Origin: Paenibacillus urinalis
GTDB lineage: Bacteria > Bacillota > Bacilli > Paenibacillales > Paenibacillaceae
Direction of reading: 5' to 3'
Assembly: GCF_028747985.1 (NCBI RefSeq)
Contig: NZ_CP118108.1
Span: 935,501 to 999,500, forward strand
DNA: 64,000 bases
Shown here: one piece after another, positions 37,964 through 52,127 of the stretch
Layout: each line of letters begins with the position of its first letter
Position numbering within the stretch: the first letter of the stretch is position 1
Program-made: the position numbers and the translations under genes
The notes under the pieces: model-generated
What the model saw: only the letters and a program-made list of their open reading frames with translations
The model's database searches: none
Told to the model about the DNA's origin: nothing

Positions 37964-37983
37964 TATTTATTTCAAATATTTGG

Positions 37984-38012
37984 TTGACAAAGAATGCTGT
38001 CTTGCATATAAT
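37984..38012 (+). promoter_or_regulatory. Consensus sigma-A promoter of nrtR
   Basis: TTGACA (37984-37989), 17 nt, TATAAT (38007-38012): a perfect consensus promoter, directly followed by a palindromic operator. Confidence 0.85.
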
Positions 38013-38016
38013 ACAA

Positions 38017-38038
38017 TTAACAAATTGATAATTGTTAA
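38017..38038. promoter_or_regulatory. Putative NrtR operator 1 (nrtR promoter)
   Basis: TTAACAA-N8-TTGTTAA, extended by one flanking A-T pair, begins 5 nt after the -10 box. The same layout recurs in front of pncA (38960-38981), which supports a shared regulator. Confidence 0.7.
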
Positions 38039-38063
38039 TAAGTTACTTGAGGAGATCATGGTA

Positions 38064-38840
38064 ATGTCTAACATAGAAGCAATGGAACATTACGATATCA
38101 AGAAATATAGAACACCGGATGGTTATACCTCAGACATTGCTGTGTTCACTATTGTTCCTGTTCGAAATGAGGAGTTCAGACCTCCCGTGATGGATTTGAG
38201 AATTATGCTGATCCAGAGAAGCATGGTGAATAGTGAAGGTAAGCCAAATATTGAGGCGGGTAAATGGGCGCTTCCTGGTGGGTTTGTAGATCCGAAGGAA
38301 ACAGCATTCCAGAGCGCGGAGCGCGAGCTGCATGAGGAAACAGGGATACAGAATATTCATTTGGAGCACTTTGGCGTTTATGATAAGCCGGGGCGTGATC
38401 CGAGAGGCTGGATTATCACGAATGCCCATTTTGCTATCGTTCCAGAGCATGAGCTATCCGCAAGAGAAGCCAATGACGATGCAGCGGATGTGCAGCTGTT
38501 CTCGGTCAGCGAGGTGCTTGAGCTTGATCTGGCGTTTGACCATGCAGTCATTATCAAGGACGCTATACAGGTCATTAAGCAGAAGCTGCTCGAAACAACC
38601 GTTGCCAAACAATTCCTACCGGCAGAATTTACGTACTCTGAGCTACAGGCCGTTCTGCTTACCGTCACAGATGATTCAGCAATAACGTTAGAGGCTGCCT
38701 TCGCAAGAAAGATCAAGACACTGCCTTTTATTCAGGAAGTAGCGGGGCAGAAGACGACGAGAACGTCAAAAAGGCCGACGCAGCTATACCGATTTGTTGA
38801 TGTGTCCTTGAATAAGTCGATCTATCATGCGAAGCTGTAA
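38064..38840 (+). CDS. nrtR: NrtR, Nudix-related regulator of NAD metabolism
   Basis: 258 residues. An N-terminal Nudix domain with an intact box (GFVDPKETAFQSAERELHEE then TGI; residues ~75-98) is followed by a C-terminal winged helix with FTYSELQAVLLTV and AFARKIKTLPFI. This two-domain form is that of NrtR repressors, which sense NAD-derived metabolites such as ADP-ribose. The intact Nudix box leaves hydrolase activity possible; many NrtRs have lost it. ATG 38064 is 9 nt after GAGGAG. The next genes are a complete NAD salvage set with a matching operator, which fixes its role. Confidence 0.9.
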   Translation: MSNIEAMEHYDIKKYRTPDGYTSDIAVFTIVPVRNEEFRPPVMDLRIMLIQRSMVNSEGKPNIEAGKWALPGGFVDPKETAFQSAERELHEETGIQNIHLEHFGVYDKPGRDPRGWIITNAHFAIVPEHELSAREANDDAADVQLFSVSEVLELDLAFDHAVIIKDAIQVIKQKLLETTVAKQFLPAEFTYSELQAVLLTVTDDSAITLEAAFARKIKTLPFIQEVAGQKTTRTSKRPTQLYRFVDVSLNKSIYHAKL

Positions 38841-38848
38841 CCCTTAAT

Positions 38849-38887
38849 CTGACAGCACTTTGCAATAACATTGTGAAATGCTGTCAG
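38849..38887 (+). terminator. Long hairpin after nrtR, probable terminator
   Basis: CTGACAGCA (38849-38857) pairs with TGCTGTCAG (38879-38887), with an inner GCAAT/ATTGT stem. The downstream tract is A/T rich rather than a clean T-run, so termination may be partial. Confidence 0.5.
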
Positions 38888-38959
38888 AATAAAACTCTAA
38901 TAAGATACCTCAGTGCTCAGCAGGATTCACACAAGTATCATTTTTATTTATCTTATTAA

Positions 38960-38981
38960 TTAACAATTATGTAATAGTTAA
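38960..38981. promoter_or_regulatory. Putative NrtR operator 2 (pncA operon promoter)
   Basis: TTAACAA-N8-TAGTTAA matches operator 1 in 13 of 14 arm positions with the same 8-nt spacer. A weak TTCACA-N17-TATCTT promoter (38926-38954) ends just before it. Confidence 0.7.
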
Positions 38982-39011
38982 ATTAAATATTAAAGGAGCT
39001 GTTATTGGTTA

Positions 39012-39590
39012 ATGATGAACAATAAGAAAGCATTGATCCATATCGACTATACGCAAGACTTTGTAGCTAGTGATGGTGCATTGACCTGTGGTGAACCCGG
39101 ACAGCGAATTGAACGCAGAATTGCAGAGCTAACCGAAGAGTTCATTCAGCGAGGAGAGCCTGTCTTTTTTACAGTAGATGTGCATCAAGCAATTGACCCT
39201 TATCATCCTGAAACAAAGCTCTATCCGCAACACAACATCAAGGGCACAAGCGGTCGTATGCTCTATGGTGAACTGGAGAAGATCTATCAGCATAATAAGA
39301 AGAGCGAGAATGTATTTTGGATCGACAAGACAAGATATAGTGCATTTCAAGGAACAGATCTGGAACTGAGGCTCCGGGAACGCAGAGTAGAGGAGCTGCA
39401 TCTTGTAGGCGTCTGTACCGATATATGCGTTCTGCATACGGCAGTAGATGCTTACAATAAAGGTTATCAAATCGTTGTTCATGAGGATGCAGTTGCCAGC
39501 TTCAACACAGAGGGGCATCACTGGGCCATCGGACATTTTGCAGGAACTCTCGGCGCAGCGATCTATAGAAATGGAGGAACTATACGATGA
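39012..39590 (+). CDS. pncA: Nicotinamidase (isochorismatase-like hydrolase)
   Basis: 192 residues. The cysteine-hydrolase triad is visible: Asp in IHIDYTQDF, Lys in WIDKTRYSAF, and Cys in GVCTDICVLHTAVDA. It deamidates nicotinamide to nicotinate, the first step of NAD salvage. AAAGGAG lies 13 nt before ATG 39012 (ATG 39015 also possible), a long spacing. The stop overlaps the pncB start by ATGA. Confidence 0.9.
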   Translation: MMNNKKALIHIDYTQDFVASDGALTCGEPGQRIERRIAELTEEFIQRGEPVFFTVDVHQAIDPYHPETKLYPQHNIKGTSGRMLYGELEKIYQHNKKSENVFWIDKTRYSAFQGTDLELRLRERRVEELHLVGVCTDICVLHTAVDAYNKGYQIVVHEDAVASFNTEGHHWAIGHFAGTLGAAIYRNGGTIR

Positions 39591-41071
39591 ACAAAATCGA
39601 GCTTACGCAGTTGCAGCATCAGGATGACAGTATGGCACTGCATACGGATAAATATCAGATCAACATGGCAGAGGCTTATTGGCGGGATAACATGCATGAG
39701 CGTAAAGCCGTCTTTGAGGTATATTTTCGCAAGCTGCCTTTTCAGAACGGATATGCTGTTTTTGCCGGCTTAGAACGGGTAATACGTTATTTGAAGGGTT
39801 TTTCCTTTACAGAGAGCGATCTGGCATATCTGCGTGAGGAAGGATACGAAGAGGCATATCTTCAATATTTGCAAGGGCTGAGATTCACGGGGACAGTATA
39901 TTCGATGCAGGAAGGGGAGCTCGTATTTGCTAATGAACCGTTAATGCGCATTGAGGCACCACTGGCAGAAGCGCAGCTCGTGGAGACGGCCATTCTGAAC
40001 ATTGTTAACTTCCAAACCCTGATTGCAACGAAGGCATCTCGCATCAAGCAGGCCGCTGGCACCGATTCATGTGTTGAATTCGGGACACGAAGAGCACAGG
40101 AGATGGATGCAGCCATATGGGGAACCCGGGCCGCGTATCTTGCAGGATTCGATGCCACCTCCAATGTGAGAGCAGGGAAGCTGTTCGGCATTCCTGTCGC
40201 AGGAACACATGCCCATTCGATGGTTCAAGCGTACCGGGACGAATACATGGCCTTCCGAAAATATGGAGAGACTCATCAAGACTGTGTATTTTTGGTTGAT
40301 ACTTATGACACACTGAGGTCAGGTGTGCCTACGGCGATTCAGGTTGCAAAGGAACTGGGTGACCGAATTAACTTCAAGGGAATTCGTTTAGACAGCGGGG
40401 ACCTGGCTTATTTGTCCAAGGAAGCTCGCAGGATGCTGGATGAAGCGGGATATACCGAAGCTCAGATTTACGCATCCAACGATCTGGATGAACAAACGAT
40501 CATGAATCTGAAGTCACAAGGTGCACGAATTGATGTCTGGGGTGTAGGAACCAAGCTTATCACGGCCTACGATCAGCCTGCGCTTGGCGCGGTATATAAG
40601 CTGATTGCGATCGAGGATGAGAACGGGCAGATGGCAGATACGATCAAGATTAGCTCTAATCCGGAAAAAATATCGACCCCTGGCCGGAAAAAGGTGTACC
40701 GCATTATCAATAAAACGAATGGCAAGTCGGAAGGCGACTATATTGCACTCGATCATGAGGAGCCGTCCAAGGAGGAACGTCTCCATATGTTCCATCCAGT
40801 GCATACGTATATAGGTAAATTCGTTACTGAGTTTGAAGCCATAGCGCTTTATCATACGATTTTTGCAGACGGAGAATTGGTGTATAAACTTCCGACACTC
40901 CAAGAAAGTCGAGATTTTCTTAACCGTAATCTTAGTCTATTATGGGATGAATATAAGCGGACACTGAATCCGGCAGAATACCCGGTTAATCTGAGTAAAG
41001 CGTGCTGGGACAATAAAATGAAGCGGATTGATGAAGTGAGGCAGAGAGTGGCCGCAGCCATGAAAGAGTAA
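39587..41071 (+). CDS. pncB: Nicotinate phosphoribosyltransferase
   Basis: 494 residues. The NAPRTase fold is shown by LHTDKYQINMAEAYW at the N-terminus, EFGTRRAQEMDAA (the loop with the catalytic region), GTHAHSMVQAY, and DTYDTLRSG. It joins nicotinate to PRPP to give nicotinate mononucleotide. Length and motifs are normal. It is translationally coupled to pncA and followed by nadD after 13 nt. Confidence 0.95.
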   Translation: MNKIELTQLQHQDDSMALHTDKYQINMAEAYWRDNMHERKAVFEVYFRKLPFQNGYAVFAGLERVIRYLKGFSFTESDLAYLREEGYEEAYLQYLQGLRFTGTVYSMQEGELVFANEPLMRIEAPLAEAQLVETAILNIVNFQTLIATKASRIKQAAGTDSCVEFGTRRAQEMDAAIWGTRAAYLAGFDATSNVRAGKLFGIPVAGTHAHSMVQAYRDEYMAFRKYGETHQDCVFLVDTYDTLRSGVPTAIQVAKELGDRINFKGIRLDSGDLAYLSKEARRMLDEAGYTEAQIYASNDLDEQTIMNLKSQGARIDVWGVGTKLITAYDQPALGAVYKLIAIEDENGQMADTIKISSNPEKISTPGRKKVYRIINKTNGKSEGDYIALDHEEPSKEERLHMFHPVHTYIGKFVTEFEAIALYHTIFADGELVYKLPTLQESRDFLNRNLSLLWDEYKRTLNPAEYPVNLSKACWDNKMKRIDEVRQRVAAAMKE

Positions 41072-41084
41072 GGAGGGAGCGTCG

Positions 41085-41699
41085 GTGGCGAAAATAGGTA
41101 TCTACGGATCGTCCTTCGATCCTATTACGAACGTACATTTATGGACGGCCAGTACAGTGGCTCACCGTGCCAAGCTGGATAAAGTGATCTTCCTGCCTTG
41201 CTCAAGCAAGCGCCAGGACAAAACGATGAATGTCAGCGACGAGCATCGAATGAACATGATTAACATGGCGATTCAGAACAATCCCAAGTTTGAAGCAGAT
41301 CCTTACGAAATGCAGCAGCTTGGCTGGGAAATCGCGACCTACCTCACCCTTAGACATTACAGAGAGAAGTTCCCGGATGATGAAATCTACTTTATCATGG
41401 GTGCCGATCTGCTTGTGGATATCGGAGAGGGCAAATGGAGCCGGGCAGAGGAGCTTATTCGCGAGAATAAATTTATCGTTATGGCTCGAGACGGAATCAA
41501 CATGTTGTCTGCAATCAGCAAATCGCCGATTCTGAGGAACTCGGATGATGGATACACGTTTCACTTGATTGATAAGGGTCTGGCCATGGAGATCAGCTCA
41601 AGCTATATCAGAGATGAGTTGAAGATGGGGGGCGAACCCCGCTATTTAGTCCCTGATCCATGCTATGACTATATTAAAAAACATCAATTATATAAATGA
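41085..41699 (+). CDS. nadD: Nicotinate-nucleotide adenylyltransferase
   Basis: 204 residues. The nucleotidyltransferase N-terminus [14 protein letters not shown] (GxFDPxxxxH class) and the C-terminal [10 protein letters not shown] (ISSTxIR motif) are both present, with [11 protein letters not shown] between. It adenylates nicotinate mononucleotide. GTG 41085 follows AAGGAGGGAG. Most Bacillales carry nadD beside yqeK, so this operon copy may be a second paralogue dedicated to salvage. Confidence 0.92.
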
Positions 41700-41731
41700 T
41701 TTTTACATCAAAAATAGGGAGGAACCAACAA

Positions 41732-42550
41732 ATGAATACTCAAAAACAAATCATAGAAGAACTGAATGTAAAGCCTAGTATTGTCGCAAGTGAAGAGATC
41801 AGCGCAAGAGTGAATTTCCTGAAGGATTATTGCAAAAAGACAGGAGCCAAAGGATACGTGCTCGGCATCAGCGGCGGACAGGATTCCACATTAGCCGGGA
41901 GACTGGCTCAGCTGGCCGTGGAATCGCTGCGTGAGGAAGGATATGAAGCACGCTTTACTGCAATTCGTCTACCTTACGGAACTCAGCTCGATGAGGCGGA
42001 TGCAATGGCAGCTCTTGAGTTCATTCAACCAGACGATACAGTCGTATTTAATATCGAAGACTCGGTAAATGCCTTCACAAGTGAGTATAATTCAGCCGCA
42101 GGGCAAGCATTGGCAGATTATCACAAAGGGAACGTCAAAGCCAGAATGCGTATGATCGTGCAATATGCGGTTGCAGGCGAACGCGGAGCTCTGGTCATTG
42201 GTACAGATCACGCTGCAGAAGCGATTACGGGATTTTTCACCAAGTTTGGAGACGGCGGCGCAGACCTCATTCCCCTCTCGGGACTATCGAAGAGCCAGGG
42301 CCGGGAGCTGTTGAAGGAGCTTGGTGCCTCGGAACGTTTGTATTTGAAGACTCCGACAGCCGATCTATTGGACAATAAGCCTCAGCAAGCAGACGAGACC
42401 GAGCTAGGAATCACATATGAGACACTGGACAGCTATCTTACTGGACATGAGGTTGATTCGACATCTGCGGCGAAGATCGAAGCGCGTTACAAGGCTTCAC
42501 AGCATAAAAGAGAGCTTCCGGTTACTCCGCAGGATGAATGGTGGAAGTAA
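41732..42550 (+). CDS. nadE: NH3-dependent NAD synthetase
   Basis: 272 residues, without a glutaminase domain. The PP-loop [16 protein letters not shown] near residue 50, [20 protein letters not shown] and [15 protein letters not shown] are diagnostic. It amidates nicotinate adenine dinucleotide to NAD and completes the route encoded by the three genes upstream. ATG 41732 follows AGGGAGGA; the frame is open to 41696 but that part lacks a site. A strong terminator ends the operon. Confidence 0.95.
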
Positions 42551-42700: not shown

Positions 42701-43711
42701 CTATACAGGAATGCTCTTCATTTCATAGATTTTTTGGAGTGTATCGACATGCATGGTCTTCTCTTCATCATCCTCAGTGTGGAGATACCACTCCACGAGC
42801 CTGTACCCGAATGCGAGAAGGATCATCTCGTGTACACAATGCTCGGCGATAGGGGGTACATTCGCATATTCCGAAAATCCTTTGTAATACGCAGGGACAC
42901 ATCGCTGGTAATATTCGACCATATGATGAATATCCGCTTCATCCGCAATCAGGCTTGCGAGATCCTCGCCCAGGTAGCCCCATCCGGATGTATCCCAGTC
43001 GATGAGCGCGATTTTATCCTCGGAATAGATCAGGTTGGTGACCCAGAAGTCCCGGTGGCACAGCACGAGGGGCAATTTCTCGATGCGGGCAAATATCTCA
43101 TCTGAGTGCTCATCGATATCGATAAGCATTTGCCGCGCATGCTGCGGGAAAGCACAGTCCTCCGAGCGTATATAGTCATACACGACCGGCCATGACCGAT
43201 AACGCAGATACGTATTCTTCATGAGATCCGCAGGACTCAGATTGGTCAGACTCTGCAGTACAGCGGGCTGCTCTGCGTACAGCTTGCCTTGATAACGGCC
43301 TAACTCCAGCGCGGCGTGCTCATACATATCACCAGTCAAGTCTAAACCAGATACGCCATCGATATATTCCAGCCATAACTGGAATTCATCTTCTTCGGCA
43401 TTCATCTCCGCGTAATAACATGTCGGCCAGCGTAAGGCATCCGAGAACGTCGCTCCCAGATCAGATGCATAGAGATCATATTCCCGACGCCAAGAACCCG
43501 GATCGCCGTATCGGTCCCATTTCTTCTGGATTTTCAGCACGATATGGTATGGCAATTTGTCGCCATCCATGGTTTCGGCGCTCCCAGTAACGAGGTACAC
43601 ATTTCCTACTGTGCCGCCTTGTAACGATATGGTTTGAAAGTCAGTGGAGATAATATGGGTCTTGAACTGCTGGCTTAAGGCATGGATCAGTGCTTCAATT
43701 TTAATATTCAT
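42701..43711 (-). CDS. APH/choline-kinase-fold phosphotransferase under leader attenuation
   Basis: 336 residues. The APH catalytic loop LCHRDFWVTNLIYSEDKIAL with Brenner-type HxDxxxxN, and the metal Asp in LIDWDTSGWGYLGEDLASL, are intact. The N-lobe has ISLQGGTVGNVYLV and IVLKIQ. The substrate is not predictable from sequence, but the 5' leader encodes a 10-residue peptide followed by mutually exclusive antiterminator and terminator stems, the arrangement of genes induced by ribosome-stalling antibiotics. I infer a role in resistance to a ribosome-targeting drug. AAAGGAG lies 5 nt before ATG 43711. Confidence 0.85.
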   Translation of the reverse strand: MNIKIEALIHALSQQFKTHIISTDFQTISLQGGTVGNVYLVTGSAETMDGDKLPYHIVLKIQKKWDRYGDPGSWRREYDLYASDLGATFSDALRWPTCYYAEMNAEEDEFQLWLEYIDGVSGLDLTGDMYEHAALELGRYQGKLYAEQPAVLQSLTNLSPADLMKNTYLRYRSWPVVYDYIRSEDCAFPQHARQMLIDIDEHSDEIFARIEKLPLVLCHRDFWVTNLIYSEDKIALIDWDTSGWGYLGEDLASLIADEADIHHMVEYYQRCVPAYYKGFSEYANVPPIAEHCVHEMILLAFGYRLVEWYLHTEDDEEKTMHVDTLQKIYEMKSIPV

Positions 43712-43742
43712 TTTTAGCTCCTTTAATATTGTTTGTTAGACG

Positions 43743-43795
43743 CAAAAAAGATACGACCTTCATCGTATCTGCAAACAGCAATATTCACGAAAGGT
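43743..43795 (-). promoter_or_regulatory. Transcription attenuator (terminator/antiterminator) of the APH-type gene
   Basis: On the minus strand AGATACGA-TGAAGG-TCGTATCT is followed by TTTTT (43743-43770), an intrinsic terminator ~30 nt before the gene. An upstream arm ACCTTTCGT (43787-43795) can instead pair with ACGATGAAGGT (43756-43766), which includes the left arm and loop of the terminator. That arm can also be captured by CACGAAGG (43912-43919) at the leader-peptide ribosome binding site. Three exclusive pairings of this kind describe a classical attenuator. Confidence 0.8.
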
Positions 43796-43866
43796 TACTT
43801 TGGATGGCATACCAAATAATACGGGCGTTTTCCCGCTTCTAATTGTGCATGCCTGCTATTCAGTTT

Positions 43867-43899
43867 CTAAGACAGAACCACCATATAAGTCGCAGCCAT
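43867..43899 (-). CDS. Leader peptide MAATYMVVLS of the APH-type gene
   Basis: A 10-codon ORF with AAGGGAG 9 nt before its ATG (43899), ending TAG at 43867. An upstream in-frame ATG at 43908 abuts the site and is unlikely to be used. It is followed by a 7-bp GGCATGC/GTATGCC stem (one G-T pair), the antiterminator arm and the terminator. A ribosome initiating or stalled here would cover CACGAAGG and free the antiterminator arm. Confidence 0.65.
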   Translation of the reverse strand: MAATYMVVLS

Positions 43900-43950
43900 T
43901 AAAAACATCTCCCTTCGTGTCAGGAACTTGCTTATCACTAAGCTATATAT

Positions 43951-43979
43951 AAAATATCCTTTATTGGAAAAATAATCAA
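43951..43979 (-). promoter_or_regulatory. Putative promoter of the attenuated APH-type gene
   Basis: On the minus strand TTGATT (43979-43974), 17 nt, TATTTT (43956-43951). It would give a leader of ~230 nt containing the peptide and attenuator. Confidence 0.45.
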
Positions 43980-47481: not shown

Positions 47482-48354
47482 ATGGGAGCAGGAAAGATGC
47501 ACGCCGACGAAATGGAAATTGACGATGCGCTTGTACGCCGTCTCATTCTGGAGCAGTTTCCCCAGTGGGCAGAGCTAACCCTAGAGCGGATCGAGCCGGC
47601 GGGCACAGTAAACGCCATCTTTCGGCTCGGTGACGAGTATTCTGTTCGTCTTGCACGGCGCGAGGGACCTGTGATACCGGAAAGTCGTGAATTGATCTGG
47701 CTGCCCAAGCTCGCACCCTTACTTCCGCTGGAAACCCCTGTTCCTATTGCACAAGGGCAGCCGAATAACGAATATCCGTGGTTCTGGGAAATACATACAT
47801 GGGTTGAGGGGAAGACGGTGCCAATAGAAGAGATGGACGTAATTCAGGCAGCACGTGATCTTGCAGATTTCGTTGGAGCACTGCAACAAATCAATCCATC
47901 GGGGGGACCGCCAGGACGCGGTATTCCCCTGGCTCAGCGGAATGAAGAGTTTCAATACTGGCTGGCACGGTTCGATGGCGATCCTGCCGTGTCCGCAGTG
48001 TGGGAATCTGCGCTTGCTGCTCCTCCCTGGAACGGACCACCCGTTTGGCATCACGGCGACCTCGATGTGCGTAACTGGCTCGTGCGAAACGGACGTATTA
48101 CGGGTGTGATTGATTGGGATACAATGGGGATTGGAGATCCTGCGTGCGACATCATGGTTGCATGGAAGCTGCATTCCGCTGCAGCCTGTGATGCATTCCG
48201 CGAACATCTCCCGACAGATGATGCTACGTGGGCAAGAGCAAGGGGATGGGTCGTATCCCAAGCGGTATCAGCGCTTGCATACTACACGCCGGACAACAAT
48301 CCTGTTCTGTACCATGAGGCTGAGTCCTGGCTTGACCTCATATTATCTGAATGA
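47482..48354 (+). CDS. APH-family phosphotransferase
   Basis: 290 residues. The catalytic loop VWHHGDLDVRNWLV and the metal-binding GVIDWDTMGIGDPACD are intact, and the N-lobe has GTVNAIFRLGDEYSVRL. It resembles the group annotated as aminoglycoside phosphotransferases but its substrate is unknown. The GC content looks higher than in the flanking DNA, which may indicate transfer. GAGGTG is 8 nt before ATG 47482. It is the second APH-fold gene in 6 kb. Confidence 0.88.
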   Translation: MGAGKMHADEMEIDDALVRRLILEQFPQWAELTLERIEPAGTVNAIFRLGDEYSVRLARREGPVIPESRELIWLPKLAPLLPLETPVPIAQGQPNNEYPWFWEIHTWVEGKTVPIEEMDVIQAARDLADFVGALQQINPSGGPPGRGIPLAQRNEEFQYWLARFDGDPAVSAVWESALAAPPWNGPPVWHHGDLDVRNWLVRNGRITGVIDWDTMGIGDPACDIMVAWKLHSAAACDAFREHLPTDDATWARARGWVVSQAVSALAYYTPDNNPVLYHEAESWLDLILSE

Positions 48355-49406: not shown

Positions 49407-52127
49407 TTATTTTGCTGTAACATGGGCAATGACACGATCCTCATTATAAGTGACAGTCACGTCATAACCATCCGCAGTTACACGATCAAATTGACCTTTA
49501 ACTCCAGCGGCAGTAATTAATGTAATATCTTTAGAACCCTCAATGTTATAGTTAGATAGATCCAGATTCAGGCTTCCCCCAGCAAGATACAGCATTTTGC
49601 TGACATGGATCTGACTGTTGTCATTATCCATCACCATTTCTAAGGTTCCGTTGTCCATGGTAAAGTTTCTGTTCAGTTTCAATGCTCCATCGGTGGTAAC
49701 CATGACCGTTCCATTCTCCACATACAGATCACCGGTACCAAATGCGGTCGCAGACTGGGCTTCCAGTGTTCCTCCTTGAAGCAAGGTTCCGCCAGAATAG
49801 GTGTTGTTTCCTGTCAAAGTAAGGGTTCCCGATCCCTTCTTCGTAAGCATGCCAGCGCCACTGATATTATTTCTCCACCAGTCTTGTGCGTTAAAGCGTC
49901 CTTCTGAAGCGTCCATATTCACGGTTACATTGTCCAAGAACGCGCCGTATCCATCCGCAGCGGTAACGAGATCCAGTCTGCCCCAGCCGTTTGATTCGTC
50001 CAGTACAGGATAACCGGAGTCAATGGATGTTGTATACAATACTTCTCTGCGCTGTTCATCGGTTAAATAAGGCTGGCGCGTTTCAAGTAGAGCTTCTGCG
50101 CCTTCTGGCACTTCCGGAGCGAGGCCTTTGATTCCAGTTTGAGGCAGGCCGTAAGTAAGCTTCTCTCTGTAGAAGGCTTTATTGGCATCATGATCTGCCC
50201 ATTTGGTCTCATCATATGCACTCTGGAACGTGTAATCCTCTGTCACGGTATGCGCATAGTCGTACAGGCTCATGTTATTCGCGGCTGCGGCTGCGCCAAA
50301 TACTTCTCCTGCATTGTCATATGCCTTCTCTAACAATTCTTTGTTCTCTTCCTTATTGAATGCATAGGCCGTCATGGCGGTAGCTTGAATTCTTGCACCG
50401 ATGACATCAAGCGGTGAGTGCATTCCGGTTACGATGCGATTCTCACCCATTTGGGCTGCTCTGGTCAAAAATTCAGCGTAACGTTCTGGCGTAGCGTAGG
50501 CAAAAGGTAATACGGATAAGTACGATGCACTTGTATGTCCGCTTGGAAAAGCACCATCTTTCCCTTGTCCGTCCTCAGCTTCTCTTCTTACATAGCTCAA
50601 GGCAGGAATAACCTCAACTTCGGTTTCGTACGATTGGAAATGTCTTTCGCCGGTTGATTTTGTTCCGCCTGAAGGCAAGGGCTCATCTGTAGCTTCACCT
50701 TTACCGATTGTTTCCCAAACAGCCAAACCATTCTGATCGACGACCTCTTTAACCTCTCCGTTTGAGTTCATTCTCCACGGTCTAGGCGAAGAGTAGAAGT
50801 ATTTAGAAGGATTAGATGAGGCCGGGATTTTGAAACGAACTAAATCAACTAGAGCAACCATATCTGCAAGCTCAGTATTGGCCCAATCGCTGCCGATTCC
50901 CTGGCTTTGGTCTTCTGTCGTGGTTTCTGTCAAGACGACATCCATGTCATCGATGCTTCGTTCAACACTAGTCGTTGGCTTGATGATATCTACATAAGTG
51001 TTAGCCAGAGGGCCGAATCCGTCGATCATACTATAGATCTTATCTCTTTGGTCATCATAATAAGCTGCAAGTGCTTCTTCTTTGGTACGATTTTGCGTGA
51101 CATCTTCTACATATTTAATGTTCGCAACCCAAGTTGCCTTATTTCTGATCTCGACATTTGCATAGGTTTTGTTTTCTGCAACGACAGCAGCTGCATCATT
51201 TTTAAAACCGTCAAAATATACGGTCGGCCCGTCACCGTAATTCGCAACCTTGCCGTTGGCCCCAGGGACAGTTAAGGCTGTTCCATTTCTCCAGGCTGGT
51301 TGGTTCAAGGACCATACCGCATCAAAACCGTCCAGAATTTGAATGAATGGATTCGTTGCGGCCGTGTTCTTTAAGGTGTCGTCCGCTGCATTGTCACCAT
51401 GTCGCACTGCAGATAAGGAGGCTTCATCCGCAGGAGGGGCAACATTGAGCTGATTTGTCGTTCCTACCGGTTTAGATGGTTTGGTACCCACTTGAGTATT
51501 CGAATCTACAGCATTAACCAGTATTTCGACGGCTTCGGCACGTGTGATCGAATGAAGAGGTTTAAAGCTGCCATCTTCATAACCGGATATCATTCCCGCC
51601 GCTGCCGCTGCACCTACAGCTCCTTTGCTCCAATCTGCAATGGTGGATGAATCGCTAAAGGCATCCGCGGCTTGCTCATTATCCTCCAAATTCAGAATTC
51701 CGGCGATGATCACTGCTGCTTCTTGCCGGGATAAGGAATTTTGCAGCTTCATCGTTTGATCCGAGTACCCGCTTATATATCCAGCGGCGCTGGCTGCAGC
51801 CACGGCGTCATAGTACCAGGCATCCACAGAAACATCTTTGAAGTTAATCTTGTTTTGTCCTGAATATCCAAAAGCAGCATTGACTAAATTTATAAACTCG
51901 GCTCTAGTGATGGATTTGTTCGGTTTAAAGGTACGGTCCAAATATCCTCGAACCAATCCTTGATCGATCCAAGCTTGAATTTTTGCTTCTGCCCAGTGTC
52001 CCTTAATATCGGAGAGCTGAACCTCCGGGCTTGCTGCGAAACTTTGACCTGCTAACGACGAGCTTGCCATAGATAACATGAGAAGAAATGCGAGTGATTT
52101 TTTTGATTGTTTTTTCATAGCCTGCAA
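49407..52127 (-). CDS. SLH-anchored PAP2-family phosphatase/haloperoxidase-fold protein
   Basis: 906 residues. Signal peptide (1-~32), then three SLH repeats (~38-215; IKGHWAEAKIQAWIDQGLV, VSVDAWYYDAV, SGYEDGSFKP). The PAP2 domain has all three motifs: KYFYSSPRP (~446), FPSGHTSASY (~529) and NRIVTGMHSPLDV (~565). A later GSGTLTLTGNNTYSGGTLLQ (~750) is an autotransporter-associated beta-strand repeat, followed by a beta-helix-like tail. It should be a wall-attached acid phosphatase or phosphodiesterase. TTG 52127 has AGGGG 7 nt upstream; ATG 52118 is the alternative. Confidence 0.9.
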   Translation of the reverse strand: MQAMKKQSKKSLAFLLMLSMASSSLAGQSFAASPEVQLSDIKGHWAEAKIQAWIDQGLVRGYLDRTFKPNKSITRAEFINLVNAAFGYSGQNKINFKDVSVDAWYYDAVAAASAAGYISGYSDQTMKLQNSLSRQEAAVIIAGILNLEDNEQAADAFSDSSTIADWSKGAVGAAAAAGMISGYEDGSFKPLHSITRAEAVEILVNAVDSNTQVGTKPSKPVGTTNQLNVAPPADEASLSAVRHGDNAADDTLKNTAATNPFIQILDGFDAVWSLNQPAWRNGTALTVPGANGKVANYGDGPTVYFDGFKNDAAAVVAENKTYANVEIRNKATWVANIKYVEDVTQNRTKEEALAAYYDDQRDKIYSMIDGFGPLANTYVDIIKPTTSVERSIDDMDVVLTETTTEDQSQGIGSDWANTELADMVALVDLVRFKIPASSNPSKYFYSSPRPWRMNSNGEVKEVVDQNGLAVWETIGKGEATDEPLPSGGTKSTGERHFQSYETEVEVIPALSYVRREAEDGQGKDGAFPSGHTSASYLSVLPFAYATPERYAEFLTRAAQMGENRIVTGMHSPLDVIGARIQATAMTAYAFNKEENKELLEKAYDNAGEVFGAAAAANNMSLYDYAHTVTEDYTFQSAYDETKWADHDANKAFYREKLTYGLPQTGIKGLAPEVPEGAEALLETRQPYLTDEQRREVLYTTSIDSGYPVLDESNGWGRLDLVTAADGYGAFLDNVTVNMDASEGRFNAQDWWRNNISGAGMLTKKGSGTLTLTGNNTYSGGTLLQGGTLEAQSATAFGTGDLYVENGTVMVTTDGALKLNRNFTMDNGTLEMVMDNDNSQIHVSKMLYLAGGSLNLDLSNYNIEGSKDITLITAAGVKGQFDRVTADGYDVTVTYNEDRVIAHVTAK

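Follow-up and report, generated by a model that had tools for sequence, protein, structure and literature searches.

A leader RNA before an APH-type kinase gene of Paenibacillus urinalis, a probable reduced member of a Firmicutes family of ribosome-dependent attenuators

Introduction

What controls the APH-type kinase gene that lies on the minus strand of a 64,000-nt stretch of Paenibacillus urinalis DNA (the window, by which the whole stretch is meant), and what would the enzyme be for? A first-pass annotation, made from the letters of the window alone, had noticed a short open reading frame and a terminator directly in front of this gene, and had read them as a classical attenuator through which stalling of ribosomes by a drug would turn on an uncharacterised resistance enzyme. 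Here, this reading is followed up by comparison with related genomes, RNA folding, and analysis of the genes behind the leader. On balance, we consider it rather likely that a conserved Firmicutes family of transcription attenuators, ribosome-dependent and of the vmlR/hflXr kind, is represented here in shortened form, and that translation inhibitors induce it.

Results

The leader in the window

When the sequence was re-read, all the parts claimed by the first-pass annotation were found at the positions given for them (Table 1). The terminator, here called T1, consists of the arms AGATACGA/TCGTATCT (43770-43749) followed by six T, and was also picked up by a terminator scan; ACCTTTCGT (43795-43787) and CACGAAGG (43919-43912), to which the alternative pairings had been ascribed, likewise stand where they had been placed. 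The promoter-like boxes are present in the sequence, but the consensus scan lists no promoter on the minus strand. Folding of the minus-strand leader, which had been proposed as a check, gave -74.8 kcal/mol against a mean of -53.4 kcal/mol for shuffled sequences (z -4.56, 0/200 shuffles).

Rfam 15 gave no match above the gathering score anywhere in the window. Six relatives compared with Rfam gave only a ZTP riboswitch and tRNA, both apart from the leader element; in the locus of one relative (L142, 118-198) a ZTP riboswitch lies upstream.

Table 1. Parts of the leader and kinase gene in the window, and the basis of each assignment (P1, pairing of the leader Shine-Dalgarno with the core; T1 and T2, terminators; AT1 and AT2, antiterminators)
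Feature	Position	Strand	Basis
-35-like box TTGATT	43974..43979	-	sequence; similar box in the printed leaders of relatives (by eye); absent from consensus scan list
-10-like box TATTTT, spacer 17	43951..43956	-	sequence; similar in relatives (by eye)
small 5' hairpin GCTTA-GTGA-TAAGC	43930..43943	-	sequence; in relatives (by eye); within MFE fold
P1 5' arm CACGAAGGG, overlapping the leader Shine-Dalgarno (SD)	43911..43919	-	partner 43786-43794; RNAalifold in both leader types
leader ORF MAATYMVVLS + stop, 10 codons, SD AAGGGAG	43867..43899	-	frame and peptide conservation
P2 hairpin GGCAU..AUGCC	43806..43853	-	MFE; RNAalifold consensus, both leader types
conserved 23-nt core AACCTTTCGTGAATATTGCTGTT	43774..43796	-	exact pattern in BLAST-found and covariance-model-found leaders
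P1 3' arm, also 5' strand of AT1	43786..43794	-	pairing counts, RNAalifold, shuffles
AT2 strand TTGCTGTT	43774..43781	-	pairs with T2 left arm in relatives; orphaned in the window
terminator T1 with T6 tail	43744..43770	-	sequence, terminator scan, T1/T2 pairing counts
T1 end TTTTTTGCGTC, then directly the pre-SD stretch; site of the missing T2	43738..43743	-	comparison with relatives
kinase SD AAAGGAG	43718..43724	-	same stretch stands before rsgA in relatives
APH/choline-kinase-fold phosphotransferase gene, 336 aa, ATG at 43711	42701..43711	-	Pfam, alignment, AF2 and Foldseek

Distribution and conservation of the leader

BLAST matched the leader DNA in 25 of the 149 relatives searched, in three cases through short pieces of 49-91 nt. 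The pattern of the 23-nt core was found on 93 genome contigs. Among the matches listed (80 of the 93 core contigs), 54 titles name Paenibacillus; the other genera listed include Brevibacillus, Cohnella, Bacillus, Lysinibacillus, Sporosarcina, Psychrobacillus, Cytobacillus, Lederbergia and Saccharibacillus, and three Clostridiales or Oscillospiraceae bins also appear. A covariance model matched 13 of the 398 genomes searched in the class, and 7 of 391 genomes drawn round an Oscillospiraceae bin.

Neither the BLAST nor the covariance-model search required the core pattern, which is exact in 25 genomes found by the former and in 13 found by the latter. The 3' end of the core differs in the more divergent copies, and the conservation of its 5' part seems to exceed what pairing by itself would demand. 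Of the features that the first-pass annotation had proposed to look for in relatives, leader ORF, SD pairing and T1 do recur, with the 23-nt core, in the 93 contigs. Judged by these comparisons, the conservation of the leader is more than chance. By eye, five leaders (L064, L096, L115, L127, L136) carry a hairpin-like insert of about 40 nt between the core and T1.

Two further ideas were tried and rejected. Carriage by mobile elements was considered, but searches of plasmid and phage collections gave no kinase match within the E-value limits applied, and the core was absent from the viral contigs searched; relatives of RsgA, whose gene accompanies the kinase gene in many relatives (see below), occur on plasmids at less than 60% identity. 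Mimicry of rRNA was suggested by a resemblance, by eye, of the core to helix 44 of 16S rRNA, but neither alignment nor duplex scores of the 23-nt core against 16S and 23S rRNA rose above those of shuffles. A longer segment of the type B leader gave a modest result (16/200 shuffles as high for 16S, 7/200 for 23S), and for the type A segment 109/200 (16S) and 81/200 (23S) shuffles scored as high.

The leader ORF

The start codon of the leader ORF stands 15, 18, 21 or 24 nt from the codons for a VV motif, a multiple of three in 89/89 leaders, these being the leaders where the motif was found; by sequence comparison, ORF length ranges from 9 to 13 codons. Nearly all the leader peptides (87/88) end in V-[VI]-x-x-stop, and position 2 holds A, T or S in 87/88, the best-conserved residues being those adjoining the stop. 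Eleven divergent copies were taken from the L062, L091 and L103 bins and from genomes sampled around that of L091. Ten of their peptides end in V-[VI]-x-[STP]-stop, and in these the second codon varies. The peptide of L170 ends in AVA-stop; the divergent peptides include MTVNEKVIVS, MTALYEVIVS, MTVSMMVVET and MTVAIVMEKVVVP. From the conservation of frame and peptide, the leader ORF looks translated.

As had been remarked for the window, the peptide has no R-x-R motif; this holds for all the parsed peptides (0/91) and, by eye, for the 11 divergent ones. The traits of an attenuator of amino-acid biosynthesis, namely a run of regulating codons and a biosynthetic gene, are absent from the peptides and from the genes behind the switch. 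One may speculate that ribosomes stall at the end of the ORF while a second one queues on the SD, which would account for conservation at both ends.

A second terminator and its loss in the window lineage

In many relatives the leader match ends after T1 and the pre-SD piece resumes about 50 nt further on, with a second terminator, T2, in between. T2 was recognised by pattern in 87 of 90 loci of sufficient length; L074 and L149, which belong to the clade of the window, gave no match, and L062 was not recognised by the pattern used. In the relatives T2 is flanked by two TTTTTGCGTC-like copies, whereas the window has a single one, as would be expected from a deletion between direct repeats. Two-sided changes in T1 and T2 were counted in 29 cells against a shuffled mean of 12.0 (0/500), and in 7 pairs against 3.8. 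Because little is left of the T tail of T1 in L101, L102, L119 and L140, T2 is probably the working terminator there.

By comparison with the relatives, the lineage of the window is one that has lost both T2 and rsgA. Since only T1 remains, the function of the element in the window is uncertain; it would be a reduced form in which control may be impaired.

Pairings in the leader RNA

The pairing P1 between the leader SD and the segment CCTTTCRTG of the core, one of those proposed by the first-pass annotation, proved widespread. All nine positions are paired in 79 of 89 correctly parsed leaders, mismatches occurring in the other 10/89, and P1 is part of the RNAalifold consensus in both leader types. 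In 53 leaders folded with no ribosome placed, its mean probability before completion of T2 was 0.90. One clear two-sided change was seen (L077), and in L107, L116 and L145 a G-to-A change in the core stands without compensation.

The proposed antiterminator AT1, formed by the core and the left arm of T1, fared less well: it is only moderately supported, the shuffle test and folding being weak. In 90 leaders, T1 forms at equilibrium under every modelled ribosome position (means 0.96-0.98); up to the completion of T1, AT1 attains no more than 0.20-0.35. At equilibrium AT1 has a low probability (mean 0.22 without a ribosome, 0.36 in the window). Compared with shuffles, AT1 gave values of 0.05 or less in 4/11 divergent leaders and 0.143 or less in 11/11. 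As the sole antiterminator it was rejected as weak, with 0.021, 0.056, 0.089 and 0.166 in four Bacilli references.

A second antiterminator, AT2, pairs the 3' half of the core with the left arm of T2. It is paired in 97.9% of cells in 48 rows, a figure that cannot show covariation because the core hardly varies in Bacilli. In the divergent leaders, the strands CUGCUGUU:AACAGCAG of Bacilli are replaced by CUGUAAACU:AGUUUGCAG in L176, with four pairs changed on both sides, and by CUGCAAAUU:AGUUUGCAG in L180; similar exchanges are seen in L178, in L179 and, with one mismatch, in L172. In L176-L179 the UUU of the T2 left arm, for which T2 itself offers no good partner, pairs in AT2 (all these by eye). 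When the T2 arm was shuffled for comparison, AT2 gave 0.034 or less in 8/11 divergent leaders (0.116, 0.150 and 0.151 in the other three) and in 4/4 Bacilli leaders. On these comparisons AT2 is the better supported antiterminator of the two. In the window its strand TTGCTGTT is orphaned because T2 is lost.

The exclusive pairings on which the first-pass annotation had based its logic are putative: P1 and AT2 are well supported and AT1, the one exclusive with P1, only moderately so, the partner of AT2 being absent in the window. Ribosome-position folding switched neither T1 nor AT2, the latter hardly varying with position (0.60-0.68). Because T1 forms at equilibrium whatever the position of the ribosome, switching would have to be kinetic; and because P1 is compatible with AT2, P1 alone leaves the control of T2 unexplained. 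With T1 never removed at equilibrium, AT2 nearly independent of position and P1 not excluding AT2, the switch would have to depend on timing and on RNA polymerase pausing. A comparison of changes in left and right arms did not single out the antiterminator partners (T1, 4 vs 8 of 240; T2 inner, 38 vs 43 of 384; T2 outer, 24 vs 40 of 288), and such asymmetry is not specific, because the outer part of T2, which has no antiterminator partner, is also asymmetric.

The element in the window might, then, be a decaying remnant, with T1 a constitutive partial terminator and the kinase made at a fixed low level. The lack of a recognised T2 in only L074, L149 and, by pattern, L062 among the 90 loci agrees with this, as does the probability of P1 in the window, 0.04 before T1 is complete. 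However, leader ORF, P1 arms, core and T1 are all still intact, likewise in G001 and G010 (L031, L032), and the leader folds at the z value given above, so that we regard plain decay as unlikely, though not to be neglected.

The kinase and RsgA proteins

The kinase encoded in the window matches the Pfam APH family (PF01636, 50.7 bits against a cut-off of 23.2). In a 36-row alignment the catalytic residues H219, D221, N226, D238 and D240 are invariant. No NCBIfam cut-off was reached, the resistance model listed being APH(9)-Ib with 22 vs 675 bits. The AF2 model has a mean pLDDT of 71.2, and Foldseek showed its resemblance to choline, aminopropanol, homoserine, macrolide, corramycin and amicoumacin kinases at 11-17% identity. 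The antibiotic kinases AmiN (6sui), corramycin kinase (8agy) and MPH share the fold, the HxDxxxxN motif and the Mg-binding aspartate, but at such identities the likeness is no better than to choline or homoserine kinase. An amicoumacin kinase was considered and rejected, AmiN being just one among many APH-fold matches (13-16% identity), and the paper listings searched contained nothing tying AmiN to this kinase family.

Among the matches listed, the closest named kinases are from Paenibacillus shunpengii (98%) and from Paenibacillus sp. TCA20 and FSL H7-0326. Of the 149 relatives, 56 had a match at E <=0.001, distant APH proteins included, and 34 had one above 250 bits. That the kinase is an uncharacterised inducible resistance enzyme, as had been proposed, is plausible, and the protein may be taken as a candidate.

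RsgA is a GTPase that acts as a maturation factor of the 30S subunit. The operon-encoded RsgA (L033) scores 159.1 bits with TIGR00157 (cut-off 100); in 18 rows its GTPase motifs and C283, H290 and C296 are invariant and C288 nearly so, these being zinc ligands. In the 16 genomes checked, 8/9 with an operon rsgA had three strong RsgA-family matches (G077 had two), and 6/7 without it had two (G010 had three).

The genes behind the switch

The common operon in the relatives consists of the leader, a gene for an RsgA-type GTPase and one for an APH-type kinase, and this is the ancestral order. Where at least 2.7 kb of downstream DNA was available (59 loci), full-length rsgA and kinase genes were found in 32 and a full-length kinase without full-length rsgA in 23; the remaining loci had rsgA without the kinase (2), rsgA with a broken kinase match (1), or both genes partial (1). 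On a quick tree of 68 kinases, the window included, of which 34 have an intact rsgA and 34 were not found to have one, the state of rsgA changes at least 21 times, and the genera are interleaved; 16 of the 65 inner branches of this tree are starred. In L003, L005, L007 and L030 the kinase locus has no leader, and the tail of rsgA, by eye, still stands upstream.

Other genes may take the place of these two. The bin of L091 holds three copies of the switch. One precedes rsgA, another stands ahead of an rsgA remnant (by eye) and an APH-GNAT fusion protein, and the third leads into an ABC ATPase (drrA-like, though short of that cut-off) together with two ABC-2-like permeases. L103 has an rsgA overlapping a GNAT gene whose similarity to AAC(6') is weak, and in L175 the switch is followed by a protein with two GNAT stretches; L172 and L176-L179 have rsgA behind it. 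L062 has a nitroreductase, and neither a full-length kinase nor a full-length rsgA was found downstream in L064 (2.7 kb) and L072 (1.7 kb); these three cases do not obviously speak of drug defence. In L091, small genes, presumably HEPN- and MNT-like, lie at 408-1108, directly behind a leader-controlled rsgA.

Overall, the element seen by the first-pass annotation was confirmed and its interpretation supported in part. It was right about leader ORF, SD pairing and T1, but missed T2 with its antiterminator, the lost rsgA and the wide spread; the element itself is bigger and older than it had been drawn, and its details differ.

Discussion

Of the systems already described, the nearest are the following. 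In Listeria monocytogenes, lincomycin and erythromycin induce the rli80-hflXr attenuator, which has a short leader ORF and an anti-antiterminator/antiterminator/terminator arrangement, and precedes a gene for a ribosome-associated GTPase paralogue, as here; it differs in that the GTPase is HflX rather than RsgA and in the RLR motif of its leader, not found in the present one, and the excerpted text describes neither a second terminator nor a kinase partner (PMC6310831). In the vmlR leader of Bacillus subtilis, stalling on a uORF blocks the anti-antiterminator, so that the antiterminator beats an intrinsic terminator; by description rather than by sequence, it differs in its 3-codon uORF, single intrinsic terminator, SD-sequestering hairpin and ABC-F gene (PMC9226507, in excerpt). 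As for RsgA, the excerpted report on Streptomyces coelicolor lists an RsgA/EngC pair among WblC-activated genes and their paralogues (PMC7157823). This is likewise an extra RsgA/EngC copy in a regulon against translation-targeting antibiotics, but under a transcription factor instead of a leader RNA, and with no APH partner named in that text (PMC7157823).

A working model may be framed after the examples of vmlR and hflXr. Ribosomes would normally clear the leader, P1, T1 and T2 would form, and transcription would stop. A translation inhibitor would hold a ribosome on the leader, or queued at it, so that the SD is kept from pairing and P1 is blocked; the core would then capture the left arms of T1 and T2 and the operon would be read. 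Its products, a 30S-associated GTPase and a small-molecule kinase, would relieve the inhibition. In the window, with T2 and rsgA gone, the kinase gene would be guarded by T1 alone. The sensed input is probably blocked ribosomes. The AT1 stem and AT2 in its loop could coexist as a pseudoknot, which would explain how one conserved segment faces two terminators.

The dispensable RsgA paralogue, the kinase that is kept, the exchange with acetyltransferases or an exporter, the patchy spread and the translation-sensing leader together point to defence against a ribosome inhibitor as the function of the rsgA-kinase pair. The operon of the relatives looks like an undescribed antibiotic-inducible defence operon, and no description of an rsgA-APH operon or of the present leader was found in the open-licence literature searched. 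The WblC-activated pair lends this outside support. E. coli without rsgA is, according to excerpted literature, more sensitive to gentamicin, which also supports it, but likewise to cefotaxime; the latter counts against a ribosome-drug reading, since cefotaxime is not a ribosome drug. Only tentatively, and with somewhat more doubt than belief, do we propose the wider view of an undescribed Firmicutes-wide attenuator in which one RNA segment, possibly through a pseudoknot, disables tandem terminators on leader arrest, and which drives a novel kind of defence against antibiotics, made up of a dedicated extra RsgA on the 30S subunit and a drug-phosphorylating kinase, the latter replaceable by an acetyltransferase or exporter.

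It is improbable, in our judgement, that the switch senses the general rate of translation, or how readily the leader is initiated (growth state, ppGpp, 30S shortage), with no drug involved and the kinase serving metabolism. The SD pairing would indeed read initiation directly, the operon RsgA lies above the TIGR00157 cut-off of a 30S-maturation GTPase, and for the kinase model choline, aminopropanol and homoserine kinases are equally close neighbours as resistance kinases are. A housekeeping role, however, sits badly with the patchy spread (the strong kinase matches in 34/149 relatives), with an RsgA that is usually an extra copy, with the repeated absence of rsgA and with the interleaving of kinase genera; the exchange with acetyltransferases, the kinase-acetyltransferase fusion and the exporter fit a defence cassette better. 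Very improbable is a ligand-binding riboswitch, or a protein such as RsgA itself, acting on the conserved core with mere assistance from the leader ORF: the 5' part of the core is conserved beyond its apparent pairing need, but there is no Rfam match, likeness or complementarity of the core to 16S and 23S rRNA does not go beyond shuffles, the leader ORF has the look of a coding frame whose C-terminal motif is conserved, and the core stays while an intact rsgA was not found in 34/68 kinase rows.

If attenuation by blocked ribosomes is the correct reading, the leader would be a regulatory RNA that marks defence against translation inhibitors, and uncharacterised genes behind it would be resistance candidates. 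RsgA would have been recruited into drug defence in Firmicutes, like HflX, and the leader, used as a reporter, would offer a direct route to finding the drug.

Some other features of the window may be recorded. Convergent with the kinase gene lies an NAD salvage cluster on the plus strand (37980-42550), comprising a Nudix-NrtR regulator, an isochorismatase-family (nicotinamidase-like) protein, NAPRTase, a NadD-like protein and NadE, and divergent from the leader promoter is a plus-strand gene for a serine hydrolase of the beta-lactamase family (PF00144, 44000-45094). A second APH-family gene (119 bits) stands on the plus strand at 47482-48354, and the minus strand at 49407-52127 encodes a 906-aa protein with SLH domains, a PAP2 phosphatase domain and a PATR repeat.
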